A program made the position numbers and the translations under genes. From a virus, in IMG/VR virus record IMGVR_UViG_3300048032_000191, positions 1 to 20,409 of that record: a stretch of DNA of 20,409 nucleotides. One strand, written 5' to 3'. This document shows, piece by piece, positions 13,253-20,339 of the stretch. Position 1 is the stretch's first letter, and each line of letters starts with the position of its first letter. The notes under the pieces were generated by a model that worked only from the letters and a program-made list of their open reading frames with translations, made no database searches and was not told where the DNA came from.

Positions 13253-13325
13253 CTTGCAAATTGAAGGTTAGGTCTTCATATTGCTAGAACATAATTTCAA
13301 CGTGTGTGTGTTGTTATATGTGTGG

Positions 13326-13372
13326 GGGAGTCATTGCTGATTATTCGGTGGTGGCTCCCTTTTTTGTTTTTG
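13326..13372 (+). terminator. Rho-independent terminator of the late transcript
   Basis: An 8-bp stem, GGGAGTCA (13326-13333) with TGGCTCCC (13352-13359), including one G-T wobble, closes an 18-nt loop and runs directly into TTTTTT G TTTTT. It lies 73 nt after the stop of the acidic gene and reads in the direction of the late genes. It is the best terminator in the window and probably marks the end of the late operon. Confidence 0.85.
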
Positions 13373-14339: not shown

Positions 14340-14597
14340 ATGCAAAAACTCGACAAAAACCTAACTGCTAAAATCTACGATTTCCTACGTATGAACTTCG
14401 AAGAAGTTTACCAAGACGGCGATTCCGAAGGAACTTGTAAGGAGTTCTTTATAAAGCGAAATGCTGAGTCACAAGGTCATGACATGTTGTCAGTTTATAC
14501 TGACTGTGACGGAAAACTTACAGTTTCAGCTGACTGCTGGGACGATAAGAACAACGTTCTTCTAGAAAACGCCATCAATTGGCTCATCACAGCGTAG
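14340..14597 (+). CDS. Small early protein of unknown function
   Basis: This 85-residue protein is of no family that I recognise. It begins with an amphipathic helix (LTAKIYDFLRMNFEEVY), then a Cys-containing middle (GTCKEFF, YTDCDG, ADCWDD) with predicted strands, and ends with a helix (LLENAINWLITA). It starts in the same CACACACAATTATG context as the gene before it, with no Shine-Dalgarno. Its stop codon TAG lies inside the conserved GCGTAGTA that opens the duplicated intergenic element described at 14592. Confidence 0.7.
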   Translation: MQKLDKNLTAKIYDFLRMNFEEVYQDGDSEGTCKEFFIKRNAESQGHDMLSVYTDCDGKLTVSADCWDDKNNVLLENAINWLITA

Positions 14598-14637
14598 TAT
14601 ACGCAGATCAATCTTTGACAAAGTAAAGTGGCGACTC
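14592..14637 (+). repeat. Duplicated intergenic element, copy A
   Basis: It starts on the stop codon of the upstream gene (GCGTAGTA), then has CAATC (14609-14613) and an 18-base core GACAAAGTAAAGTGGCGA (14617-14634) identical in copy B at 15979-15996, followed by a pyrimidine and TC. A small hairpin GCGTA-GTA-TACGC (14592-14604) is present only in this copy. The AGTAAAG part recalls the core of single-subunit phage RNA polymerase promoters (ACTAAAG in T3, ACTATAG in T7), so a phage promoter is one explanation; a translation or RNA-processing leader is another. Confidence 0.6.
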
Positions 14638-14690
14638 TCGCTAAAATTCAACAGCCTAGCTTCGGCATAACACAGGAAGCAACACACATT

Positions 14691-15431
14691 ATGAAAATCA
14701 CCGTCAACACCGAATTACTTTCAGTAAATGCCGATGCTAAAACTAGCAAAGGCTCTAACGCTGGATACCTTACAGGTATTCTTTACTTGGCTCCAGCCAA
14801 CGAAGCCTCACCGAAGGTTAATGTTTGTCCTCATGCTTCCGAAGGATGCAAGGCTGTATGCCTATACAGTGCAGGACGAGGCAAGATGGACTCCGTCGTC
14901 AAAGCACGAGTTGCCAAAACCTTACGGTTTATCGAAGACCCGAAGGCTTTCGTAGAACTGTTGGCAATCGACATTCAGAAAATCGTCAACAAGGCAGCTA
15001 AGGTGGGTATGATACCTGCCATTAGACTCAACGGCACATCTGACCTGCCTTGGGAAAAGCTTGGTGGTAAACTTGGCGTAGCCTTAATGAATCGGTTTCC
15101 AAGCGTAGCTTTCTACGATTATACCAAAAACCCTAACCGTGCTATTGCCTATGCCGAAGGCAAGATGCCAGACAATTACCACCTTACTTTCAGTAAGTCT
15201 GAGTGCAATGACGAAGCTGTTGCCAAGGTGATCGAGGCAGGTGGTAACGTAGCTGCAGTTTTCAGCACGAAGAAGGCAGACGAACTGCCTATGTGGCACG
15301 AAGATATTCCTGTTGTCGATGGTGACAAGACTGACTTACGGTTTAACGACCCAAAGGGTGTCTTCGTAGGACTTCGAGCTAAAGGCGATGCACGAAGTGA
15401 CCGCTCTGGCTTCACCATCATACTTGACTAA
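14691..15431 (+). CDS. GP88-like conserved phage protein with Cys cluster
   Basis: The product is 246 residues from the ATG at 14691. It resembles the phage GP88 family: an N-terminal LSVNADAKTSKGSNAGYLTGILYLAPA segment (about 10-37), then Cys46, Cys53 and Cys57 in a CPHASEGCKAVCL pattern, an SAGRGK motif, and later motifs RLNGTSDLPW and FYDYTKNP. The function of the family is not established to my knowledge. The Cys cluster suggests metal or Fe-S binding, which is inference. The frame also allows a GTG at 14628 inside the duplicated element. I prefer 14691 because it has the CACACATTATG context shared by neighbouring genes and because the 21 extra residues look unrelated to the family. An AGGAAG lies 11 nt before the ATG. 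The gene ends in GACTAA, which is also the first strand of a hammerhead ribozyme. Confidence 0.8.
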   Translation: MKITVNTELLSVNADAKTSKGSNAGYLTGILYLAPANEASPKVNVCPHASEGCKAVCLYSAGRGKMDSVVKARVAKTLRFIEDPKAFVELLAIDIQKIVNKAAKVGMIPAIRLNGTSDLPWEKLGGKLGVALMNRFPSVAFYDYTKNPNRAIAYAEGKMPDNYHLTFSKSECNDEAVAKVIEAGGNVAAVFSTKKADELPMWHEDIPVVDGDKTDLRFNDPKGVFVGLRAKGDARSDRSGFTIILD

Positions 15432-15487
15432 GGCGAAACGGTCGTAAGACCGTCTGGCGGTAACCTTCCGTCACTGACGAGCCTGTC
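15426..15487 (+). ncRNA. Type II hammerhead ribozyme, copy 1
   Basis: All conserved parts of a hammerhead are present in the circular order open at stem II. Stem II: AGGC (15431-15434) pairs with GCCT (15481-15484), and GAC (15426-15428) can add three pairs with GTC (15485-15487) around a two-base bulge. GAAA lies at 15435-15438. Stem III is A15438-CGGTC with GACCG-T15453 (6 bp) closed by a GTAA tetraloop. GTC (15452-15454) is the cleavage triplet, so cleavage is expected after C15454. Stem I: TGGCGG (15455-15460) pairs with CCGTCA (15468-15473), including one G-T wobble, around loop TAACCTT. The core CTGACGA is at 15474-15480. It overlaps the stop codon of the GP88-like gene and would cut the mRNA 23 nt after that stop and 62 nt before the next ATG. 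Confidence 0.92.
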
Positions 15488-15516
15488 AGCTACACACAAT
15501 CCAATCCTACATAATT

Positions 15517-15969
15517 ATGCAATCAGTAAAAAATCGCACCATCGACAAGTCCAAACCTTTAAAGGTTTACTGGAATCTACAACGCAAATGCTACTCCGTG
15601 CAACAGAACGGGCTAGTAGTAGGTCATACTGACCGCATTGAGCTTTGTGATGTTACCTTTAAGGTAAGCGAAGCTGGTCGGCAACGAGTCTTAAAAGAGC
15701 GCAAGAAGAATGTCCATGCTTTCGTAACTGGCTACCTATATGATGAGAAGGAAGAGCGAAACTACGTTTTCCCAAACTTAAGGAGATTTCCAAATGAAAT
15801 ACATATTGTTTACAATCCTTATAAATACGACAGCTTTCGAGTCCAAAATTGCGACAGATTAGCTGTTACAACAGCTGACTTTGTATCGCTCCAATCGGAG
15901 AACGGCAAAGGACGTATCCTTGCTGATCGTGATGTGGAATCATACGTCACCTTCCCGCAGTCTGCGTAG
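15517..15969 (+). CDS. Conserved phage protein of unknown function
   Basis: The 150-residue product begins with a Lys-rich stretch followed by KVYWNLQRKCYSVQQNGLVVGHTD (about 16-39), DVTFKVSEAGRQRVLKERKKNVHAFVTGYL (about 45-75) and basic/aromatic strands. This pattern (phage mRNA-less description: small basic beta protein with a KNVHAF motif) is one I associate with a widespread family of uncharacterised phage proteins; no activity is known to me. It starts at an AATTATG after an A/C-rich leader with no Shine-Dalgarno, directly downstream of hammerhead copy 1. Its transcript would begin with the cleaved ribozyme half. It ends in GCGTAG, the first part of the duplicated element copy B. Confidence 0.75.
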   Translation: MQSVKNRTIDKSKPLKVYWNLQRKCYSVQQNGLVVGHTDRIELCDVTFKVSEAGRQRVLKERKKNVHAFVTGYLYDEKEERNYVFPNLRRFPNEIHIVYNPYKYDSFRVQNCDRLAVTTADFVSLQSENGKGRILADRDVESYVTFPQSA

Positions 15970-15999
15970 TACAATCAAGACAAAGTAAAGTGGCGATTC
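15964..15999 (+). repeat. Duplicated intergenic element, copy B
   Basis: The order is the same as in copy A: GCGTAGTA on the upstream stop codon (15964-15971), CAATC (15972-15976), the 18-base core GACAAAGTAAAGTGGCGA (15979-15996), then TTC. It lacks the nine-base insert and the hairpin of copy A. The next ATG, at 16014, is much closer than in copy A. The repeat of both the stop-codon-overlapping start and the core, between unrelated genes, shows a mobile or functionally conserved spacer. Confidence 0.6.
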
Positions 16000-16013
16000 A
16001 TGCCAACAAAATT

Positions 16014-16193
16014 ATGGAAATCAAAATCACATGGACTACCGATGACGTTTTTGACGTTGCCGAAGAACACGACATCACACTCAGCGAGGCGCAAGCTGAT
16101 GCCATACTTGGCATAGTAGGCGACAGTCACGATGCGAATATTGGCATCAACTACGGTGTCATTCTCGACACTATTCAACAACATATATCATAA
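16014..16193 (+). CDS. Small early protein of unknown function
   Basis: This 59-residue acidic protein has no recognised family. It reads as a beta strand (MEIKITWTTDDVFDVA) followed by helices (ITLSEAQADAILGIVGD and ILDTIQQHI). I chose the ATG at 16014 because it has the AAAATTATG context of its neighbours; a GTG at 15990 in frame lies inside the repeat core and would add eight residues. The next gene starts 4 nt after its stop, so the two are probably translated together. Confidence 0.6.
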   Translation: MEIKITWTTDDVFDVAEEHDITLSEAQADAILGIVGDSHDANIGINYGVILDTIQQHIS

Positions 16194-16197
16194 CATC

Positions 16198-16377
16198 ATG
16201 CTCAATCAAATCCTATCTACCTGCAAGCAACTCAATCGTCTACTCAAGGCGAAAGACCCATACCATGCCGACCTTGTAGAGACTCTACTCGCCAAGATCG
16301 ACAAGGCTATACCATCCGATAACCCACAAGGGGTTGACAAGGATGCTATAGTAGAGGCTCTCAACAAAAAAGACTAA
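16198..16377 (+). CDS. Small helical early protein ending in hammerhead copy 2
   Basis: The 59-residue product starts MLNQILSTCKQLNRLLKAKDP and appears fully helical and charged. The frame is open further upstream to 16132, but that would overlap the previous gene by 62 nt, and the ATG at 16198 lies 4 nt after the preceding stop. I recognise no family. The gene ends in GACTAA, identical to the end of the GP88-like gene, because these bases form the first strand of the second hammerhead ribozyme. Confidence 0.65.
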   Translation: MLNQILSTCKQLNRLLKAKDPYHADLVETLLAKIDKAIPSDNPQGVDKDAIVEALNKKD

Positions 16378-16436
16378 GGCGAAACAGGGTGCAACTCCCT
16401 GTCTGCTGGTAACCTTCCAGCACTGACGAGCCTGTC
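16372..16436 (+). ncRNA. Type II hammerhead ribozyme, copy 2
   Basis: The architecture is the same as in copy 1. Stem II: AGGC (16377-16380) with GCCT (16430-16433), plus GAC (16372-16374) with GTC (16434-16436). GAAA lies at 16381-16384. Stem III is A16384-CAGGG with CCCTG-T16402 around a TGCAACT loop. The cleavage triplet GTC ends at C16403. Stem I: TGCTGG (16404-16409) pairs perfectly with CCAGCA (16417-16422) around the same TAACCTT loop as copy 1. The core CTGACGA is at 16423-16429. Stem I and III sequences differ from copy 1 but keep pairing, which supports the fold. Cleavage would fall 26 nt after the upstream stop and 66 nt before the DUF932 start. Confidence 0.92.
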
Positions 16437-16469
16437 AGCATTACACATAATCAGATACATATACTGCAC

Positions 16470-17456
16470 ATGAAAAATGATACATACATCGTAAACACAC
16501 AACAAAACGGCTGGTCTCAAAAGATCACAGACAGCATCAACTCCGTTGAAGACATCGGTCTTAACTGGGACGTTCAAAAGACTCCTATGGTAGCTTTGCT
16601 AGAGGGCAAGTATCCTCTACCTATCGACACTCACGTCAGCATCAATCGCTCTGACTCTAACGAGTCCATCGGTGTGGTCGGCTCTGGCTATGAGCCAATC
16701 CAGAACACTCGCATTTGGGAAGCTTTGCACCAGTCACTGGAAGGCACGAAGCACGAAGTTGTAGGTGGTGGATACACTCACAACGGTGGTCGAGTATTCG
16801 TTCAGACCAAGGTCTCCGACGAAGACTTCACCGTCGACGGAGATGCCTTCGATAACTACGTTACGTTCTACAGCTCTCACGATGGTAGCTCTGCCTTCGA
16901 GATGTTCGACACTAGTGTCCGTATGATTTGCCAGAATACATTCCGTCTGGCTAAACAGCAGGGAGGCAAAGCCTTCAAGCTTAAGGTGCGACACACTAGG
17001 AATGCTGAGGTGCGTTTCGAGAACGTCATGCAACACCTTGAGTCCATGTTCGCCAACCGTAGGGTTGCTTATGAGAAGCTCAACCGCACTGCCGAAACTC
17101 CTATGGCTTATCCAGAGATGATTGCTTGGGCAACTTCGTTCTTCAACAAGTCCAACAAGCTGTCTACTGTAAGTAGTAACAAGGCTCACGAGGCTCGTCG
17201 GCTTGCCATTGGTGGTATAGGCAACAACGGTCGTACATCCTACGACATGTTCAACGGAGTCACGGAGCTACTCACTCACGGCGACCGTCAGACATCCAAG
17301 GATCGCTCTGCAATCTGGCGTTCGTCAGAGCTAGGAGCAGGTGCTGTGCAAAAGGCAGATGCCTTGGATCACCTGTCAATCGACAACGCTCGGCAAGACC
17401 ACATCCGTAGAGGTCGTGAGCTTATCAACACTGGCGAGACTTTACTGTCTGCATAA
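16470..17456 (+). CDS. DUF932 / phage-plasmid-like protein
   Basis: The 328-residue product matches the DUF932 (phage/plasmid-like, TIGR03299-type) family: IGVVGSGYEPIQN at 67-79, GGRVFVQTKV at 106-115, DNYVTFYSSHDGSSAFEMF at 128-146 and VRMICQNTFRLA at 150-161 are its typical signatures, and the C-terminal part (MFNGVTELLTHGDR) also fits. The length is usual for the family. Its biochemical role is not settled; members occur in phages and plasmids near replication or defence genes. It is downstream of hammerhead copy 2 with an A/C-rich, Shine-Dalgarno-free leader. Its codon use looks richer in GC than that of the flanking small genes. Confidence 0.85.
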   Translation: MKNDTYIVNTQQNGWSQKITDSINSVEDIGLNWDVQKTPMVALLEGKYPLPIDTHVSINRSDSNESIGVVGSGYEPIQNTRIWEALHQSLEGTKHEVVGGGYTHNGGRVFVQTKVSDEDFTVDGDAFDNYVTFYSSHDGSSAFEMFDTSVRMICQNTFRLAKQQGGKAFKLKVRHTRNAEVRFENVMQHLESMFANRRVAYEKLNRTAETPMAYPEMIAWATSFFNKSNKLSTVSSNKAHEARRLAIGGIGNNGRTSYDMFNGVTELLTHGDRQTSKDRSAIWRSSELGAGAVQKADALDHLSIDNARQDHIRRGRELINTGETLLSA

Positions 17457-20253: not shown

Positions 20254-20339
20254 GGGCGTGTGGTGGAATGGTAGACACGGTAGACTCAAAATCTACTGTC
20301 AGCAATGGCTTGGAGGTTCGAGTCCTCTCACGCCTACCA
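20254..20339 (+). tRNA. tRNA-Leu (anticodon CAA), CCA encoded
   Basis: The acceptor stem GGGCGTG (20254-20260) pairs with CACGCCT (20329-20335; first pair G-T). The D-arm is GTG/CAC with a GG-containing loop. The anticodon stem GTAGA/TCTAC holds the loop CTCAAAA, giving anticodon CAA (codon UUG). The long variable arm (GTC/GGC) is typical of type II tRNAs. The T-arm is GGAGG/CCTCT with loop TTCGAGT. Discriminator A and an encoded CCA end at 20339. All stems are intact, so the tRNA looks functional. It may be phage-borne, or a host tRNA next to an integrated phage (see findings). Confidence 0.93.

Follow-up and report, generated by a model that had tools for sequence, protein, structure and literature searches.

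The function of hammerhead ribozymes in phage genomes has been a question since 2011, when Perreault et al. (PMC3088659) published type II hammerheads lying between phage genes. Besides the ribozymes, their pseudoknot and their clustering around prophage genes, that work reported that clustered prophage hammerheads self-cleave in vivo (Agrobacterium DNA expressed in E. coli), noted ardA adjoining hammerheads and suggested the processing of long phage transcripts; the terms "stop codon", "RNase III" and "mRNA stability" are absent from its text. The same question is raised by the locus considered here, in which two elements of this kind lie between early genes of a T7-like phage.

The stretch of DNA analysed (hereafter the window) is a 20.4-kb IMG/VR record of 20,409 nucleotides, from a temperate T7-like marine phage with a bacterial host. 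It encodes internal virion proteins, a tail fibre, the large terminase, an early region, an integrase and a tRNA-Leu. The large terminase is 64% identical to that of MedDCM-OCT-S45-C18 and about 57% identical to those of Roseobacter CRP phages, and the early region contains GP88-like, L5-gp82-like and DUF932 genes according to Pfam. An earlier note, made from the sequence alone, had recognized a T7-like early region and a GP88-like gene upstream of the first ribozyme copy, and both are borne out: the Pfam match is strong (Table 1), and the order terminase, GP88, integrase is that of Autographiviridae such as HTVC309P and Bylgja, the same genes being followed by the RNA polymerase in cultured pelagiphages. 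The tRNA-Leu (CAA) is complete, lies after the integrase region (20254-20339) and also occurs in four relatives (G002, G003, G004 and G028). It is probably linked to the attachment site, and in a search for the host its sequence had no exact match in bacterial genomes. Two further signals were observed: a strong terminator-like hairpin with a T-run at 13324-13361, between the terminase and the early genes, and a perfect (12/12) sigma-70-like site on the minus strand at 12997-12970.

Table 1. Positions in the window of the two ribozyme copies, their parts and the neighbouring genes.
Feature	Position	Strand	Remarks
GP88-like gene (PF17338)	14628-15431	+	Pfam GP88, 9.6e-49
Stop codon (TAA) of the GP88-like gene	15429-15431		last codon GAC; both within the stem II region of copy 1
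Copy 1, complete type II hammerhead with outer stem II and tail	15424-15489	+	
Outer stem II, 5' strand (TTGAC), copy 1	15424-15428	+	pairs with GTCAG at 15485-15489
Stem II (AGGC/GCCT), copy 1	15431-15434 with 15481-15484	+	
Catalytic GAAA (G12 A13 A14 A15.1), copy 1	15435-15438	+	G12-A13-A14 at 15435-15437
Stem III hairpin, copy 1	15438-15453	+	GTAA loop; 15438-15443 pairs with 15448-15453
Predicted cut, copy 1	between C17 (15454) and 15455	+	placed by motif position
Stem I hairpin, copy 1	15455-15473	+	loop UAACCUU; 15455-15460 pairs with 15468-15473
Core CUGACGA, copy 1	15474-15480	+	N7 is C15478
Tail GTCAG, copy 1	15485-15489	+	complements core CTGAC (15474-15478) and also outer stem II
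L5 gp82-like gene (PF25735)	15517-15969	+	Pfam; downstream of copy 1
Small ORF, 59 aa	16198-16377	+	C-terminus KKD, then TAA; upstream of copy 2
Copy 2, complete type II hammerhead	16370-16438	+	
Predicted cut, copy 2	between 16403 and 16404		26 nt past the stop codon
Tail GTCAG, copy 2	16434-16438	+	complements core CTGAC (16423-16427)
DUF932 gene	16470-17456	+	Pfam; downstream of copy 2
Natural empty site, TAGTATACGCAGATCAATC	14595-14613	+	equals the 3' flank of the hammerhead in relative G008

Both copies display the type II permutation, in which stems I and III are closed by loops and stem II is open, and all invariant elements (CUGANGA, GAA, A15.1-U16.1 and H17) are present in each. For copy 1, the elements are found where the earlier note had placed them, in agreement with the fold, and its cut position coincides with the predicted site; the second copy that it had claimed is present as well. 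Its extent of 15426-15487 is 2 nt too short on either side, so that the outer stem II and the tail are both clipped: in copy 1, stem II is lengthened past the stop codon by the TTGAC/GTCAG pairing. In both copies, the ribozyme starts at the upstream stop codon and ends about 25 nt ahead of the next start codon, and in copy 1 the end of stem III, at the predicted cut, falls 23 nt past the GP88 stop codon.

Several lines of evidence bear on the identity of these elements. A composite hammerhead pattern matches only the two copies in the window, where the chance expectation is 0, and the minimum-energy fold of both is the expected three-way junction (-24.8 and -24.0 kcal/mol, z about -2.3). The earlier note had proposed the Rfam type II model as a check, to be read as a refutation if no hit above threshold appeared. 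RF02276 (Hammerhead_II) matches copy 1 with 29.6 bits (E 0.0065) and copy 2 with 30.2 bits (E 0.0045), both under the gathering score of 37 bits that defines membership; the model thus recognizes the element, while a strict reading of the check would go against it. Falling short of this score does not settle the matter, the structure being established by the low E-value together with covariation in relatives; the gathering cut-off is a curation threshold rather than a biochemical criterion, and the covariation outweighs it. At that threshold, an Rfam scan of the window reports only the tRNA, so that standard annotation would overlook both ribozymes. A model built from the clade scores the two copies at 93 and 86 bits, although both were training sequences, which makes this a consistency check only.

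The strongest evidence for the structure is covariation within the clade. Eleven related phage contigs (the window and 10 further ones) bear 1-4 copies each, on the coding strand and, in contigs that have both terminase and integrase, invariably between these two genes. Across 19 distinct sequences aligned from this clade, stems I and III are 100% paired and the catalytic core is intact in 19/19; 52 doubly compensated cells are found, a number reached in 0 of 500 shuffles, and double changes affect 11 base pairs, with slid registers nowhere near these values. The GAC/GUC pairs of the outer stem II (columns 8 and 9) are retained in 15 of the 19. In addition, the ACUA upstream of the core is invariant while the upstream genes vary, which means that the genes of unrelated proteins all finish with a GAC or AAC codon and then UAA or UAG; the ribozyme extends into the upstream coding sequence. 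On these sequence grounds, the two window elements are almost certainly hammerhead ribozymes.

To evaluate how general this arrangement is, viral contigs were scanned with patterns, which demand particular stem II sequences, followed by a structural parser; as IMG/VR is redundant, the fractions given below describe this sample. Among the matches listed, at least 844 type II hammerheads in at least 462 loci were recovered, forming 484 similarity clusters, compared with 0 when these sequences were reversed or complemented. In 317 of the 484 clusters from the matches listed, a frame spanning at least 60 codons ends in a stop codon located at -14 to -4 of G12, most commonly at -6 (UAAGGC-GAAA), and no such stop codon is found at -3 to +8 in any of them. 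For the first sample, again among the matches listed, 103 of 185 had a stop codon so placed, against 6.45 at random positions. Still within the matches listed, the distance from the stop codon to the predicted cut is 22-37 nt, and the next start codon with a Shine-Dalgarno sequence follows at a median of 25 nt past stem II. The type II hammerhead is a module that fills the gap between adjacent genes.

The sequence following stem II turned out to be a second shared feature. In 421 clusters from the matches listed, the 14 nt past stem II complement loop I by at least 5 bp in 77 clusters, against 13.4 in shuffles, and the core CUGANGA in 62, against 9.1; complementarity to the other ribozyme segments was nowhere comparably above background in these clusters. 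Pairing of the tail mainly with the upstream flank was considered as a general cause and rejected (17 against 9.1 and 7 against 8.8 expected). Over all 484 clusters from the matches listed, 65 have a core-matching tail, where shuffles predict 9, and 179 have the loop I-tail pseudoknot (at least 4 bp). Both pairings occur together in only 5 of the 484 (p=1.3e-8), and neither in 245, about half. The class with anti-core tails thus almost excludes the known pseudoknot class.

Since the match between tail and core had first been noticed in the first sample, it was evaluated again in 348 held-out clusters sharing no member with it, where 47 show the match (matches listed) against 6.5 after shuffling. 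Swapping the tails between ribozymes, which isolates the dependence on N7, the sole free core position, gave a mean of 25.4 (sd 3.5, maximum 34 in 500 runs), compared with the 47 observed. In the clusters from the matches listed, the tail carries G in 24 of the 26 with C at N7, whereas with U at N7 it carries A in 27 of 43 and G in 6 of these 43. There is covariation between the tail and core position N7. After merging clusters by a common contig or 30% of variable 6-mers, 28 matches are left against 5.4 expected in 249 groups (matches listed). Bacterial genomes yielded only 36 clusters, 2 of them with an anti-core tail against 0.95 expected, which does not confirm the class there. The core match usually begins right after stem II, whose 3' strand then forms the hairpin loop, so that the tail-core hairpin breaks the core and stem II alike.

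Both window copies belong to this anti-core class (CUGAC/GUCAG, at least 5 nt with N7 matched), and their tails can alternatively extend stem II by pairing with the upstream GAC. No 4-bp pseudoknot match is found between loop I UAACCUU and the tail GUCAGCUACAC, and loop I-tail pairing reaches 2 bp in the clade copies listed (L109). The pseudoknot is a feature of the majority, not of all, type II members, and the window copies differ from that majority in RF02276 by its absence and by scoring under the gathering score. They resemble the type II hammerheads of RF02276 and PMC3088659 in the open stem II, the invariant core, the GUC triplet and the several same-strand copies between phage genes, but are distinguished from them by an outer stem II that spans the stop codon and by the core-complementary tail. 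The novelty assumed in the earlier note is consequently reduced, hammerheads flanking prophage genes being already contained in PMC3088659, whereas the stop-codon geometry and the core-complementary tail are absent there. Neither was found described in the open-access literature, and both the geometry and the anti-core class appear new.

Taken together, these data make it likely that the hammerheads act as mRNA scissors that work autonomously and leave ends capped by hairpins, while the tail would latch the downstream product or attenuate cleavage. Cleavage in the cell is very probable. Once transcribed, each hammerhead would cut itself after C17 (15454 and 16403). With a loop closing both stem I and stem III, each product would bear a hairpin at its cut end: the upstream mRNA would end with stem III, 23-26 nt past the stop codon, and a 2',3'-cyclic phosphate, and the downstream RNA would begin with stem I and a 5'-OH. 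The early polycistronic RNA would thereby be chopped into messages the size of single genes whose ends are protected, and this role in intergenic mRNA processing seems probable. In T7, RNase III sites between the early genes serve to cut the polycistronic early RNA into hairpin-ended messages. The window elements lie in the corresponding region of a T7-like genome and would likewise yield messages ending in hairpins; in T7, however, a host protein enzyme cuts, whereas the window RNA would cut itself, the ribozyme thus doing the job of the host RNase III. In this way, the succession of stop codon, scissors and next start codon offers a definite and testable answer to the question of hammerhead function in phages.

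Concerning the tail, both classes would pair inside the downstream product, either with loop I, as in the known pseudoknot, or with the core. Formed after cleavage, the tail-core pairing would lock the product and add a second 5' hairpin; formed before, it would compete with cleavage. That the tail acts as a latch or an attenuator is on balance the favoured reading, by a small degree, and it would give N7, otherwise unconstrained, a non-catalytic role. More tentatively, and with somewhat less than an even chance, a large class of phage type II hammerheads would possess a built-in, mutually exclusive tail-core hairpin, with N7 covarying, as a genuine switch or latch setting how far the operon is cut into single-gene messages.

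Among the alternatives, the one that survives best, although it is rather unlikely, takes the tail-core hairpin as a true OFF switch: the uncut RNA would adopt the hairpin, and cleavage would occur only when pausing, a ribosome on the next gene or a protein holds the tail away. Secondary-structure calculations on full-length RNA of 62 anti-core members, which leave out the tertiary contacts that stabilise hammerheads, give medians of 0.01 for stem II and 0.98 for the tail-core hairpin. The hammerhead leads only for transcripts whose end lies 1-4 nt past stem II; in longer ones the tail-core hairpin takes over for the class as a whole, and the hairpin ends at a median of 21 nt ahead of the start codon (matches listed). 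The omitted contacts weaken this argument, as does copy 1 of the window, for which the same calculation still prefers the hammerhead (0.85 against 0.15); for copy 2, hammerhead and tail-core hairpin are about equal, the hairpin reaching 0.999 in the 3' product.

Alternatively, the ribozyme DNA could mainly serve as a recombination joint for swapping early gene cassettes between phages, with catalysis being secondary. In favour of this, the ribozyme at one and the same junction is preceded by different genes, and sites occur with and without it. Copies in the clade precede or follow GP88, follow another early gene (G005) or precede DUF932; up to four early junctions keep their hammerheads in the 11 related contigs though the adjoining genes change, a conservation that speaks for the processing role. 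Relatives have a copy ahead of GP88 that is missing from the window, which makes the presence of the ribozyme polymorphic, and at its empty site the relatives' 3' flank TAGTATACGCAGATCAATC is fused directly to the end of a different gene. Besides, neither RF02276 nor the clade model detects the element in the cultured T7-like HTVC019P, HTVC309P, HTVC120P, Bylgja, CRP-114 and RHEph21 or in two uncultured relatives (a match of 13.5 bits with E 0.06 in HTVC019P was treated as noise), and BLASTN of the region against cultured phages returned no phage relative bearing it. This absence, together with sites that come and go within the clade, indicates that the element is dispensable, a point against the processing role. 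Nevertheless, the double compensation in stems I and III lowers DNA homology while keeping the RNA structure, and the ribozymes are positioned precisely after stop codons, so that a recombination joint is an improbable main function.

A/C-rich leaders (CACACAATCCAATCCTACA) separate ribozyme and start codon in the window (15490-15516 and 16439-16469) and in clade relatives, with no obvious Shine-Dalgarno sequence between ribozyme and start in the clade, from which most other hammerhead phages differ. A shared leader (..ATCAA..GACAAAGTAAAGTGGCGA..) occurs at two ribozyme-free junctions of the window (14595-14635 and 15967-16000) and 3' of ribozymes in relatives G006-G008, as a repeated 5' leader.

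Marginally less probable still is the excision of gene cassettes by pairs of hammerheads, whose 5'-OH and 2',3'-cyclic phosphate ends would be closed by an RtcB-type ligase into circular mRNAs. The end chemistry of hammerhead products suits RtcB. The two window cuts would free a 949-nt RNA (15455-16403) with three ORFs, and 35 of the 103 first-sample contigs bear several copies, which share one strand in 35/35 (matches listed). Against this, the 41-kb relative G028 holds a single copy, no RtcB or RNA-ligase family gene was found in the phages tested, though a host enzyme is possible, and the authors of PMC3088659 sought circular products in 2011 and found none. Finally, a chance resemblance or dead relic, to which the scores under the Rfam gathering score might point, can be dismissed in view of the covariation, the intact core in all clade copies, the multi-copy conservation and the lack of matches in reversed and complemented sequences.

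The intergenic processing proposed here has counterparts in unrelated phages. The theta ribozymes of gut phages (PMC10879173) are also small self-cleaving ribozymes processing phage transcripts, as predicted for the window, but they have an HDV-like fold and adjoin tRNAs. RF02276 matches 11 times in Streptomyces phage Janus (NC_054660) and 8 times in Tefunt (NC_054665), in one gene cluster and on one strand. As in the window, the matches mapped lie mostly between annotated genes, with a start codon 23-39 nt downstream; unlike those of the window, they are mostly of the pseudoknot type by eye and belong to unrelated phages and genes. These cultured phages, with their 8-11 elements, make testing feasible now. 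In close relatives, the version of the hammerhead gene cluster of Janus and Tefunt (L716, L717) includes an annotated OCR-like antirestriction gene. Moreover, one hammerhead per cluster in the Streptomyces-type L009, L084 and L716 has a different 5' flank (...TTCAGTGC or TCAAGC-GCGAAAC) and a longer stem III with CCTCAGTG and an internal CCUCAGUG, and possibly represents a second variant.
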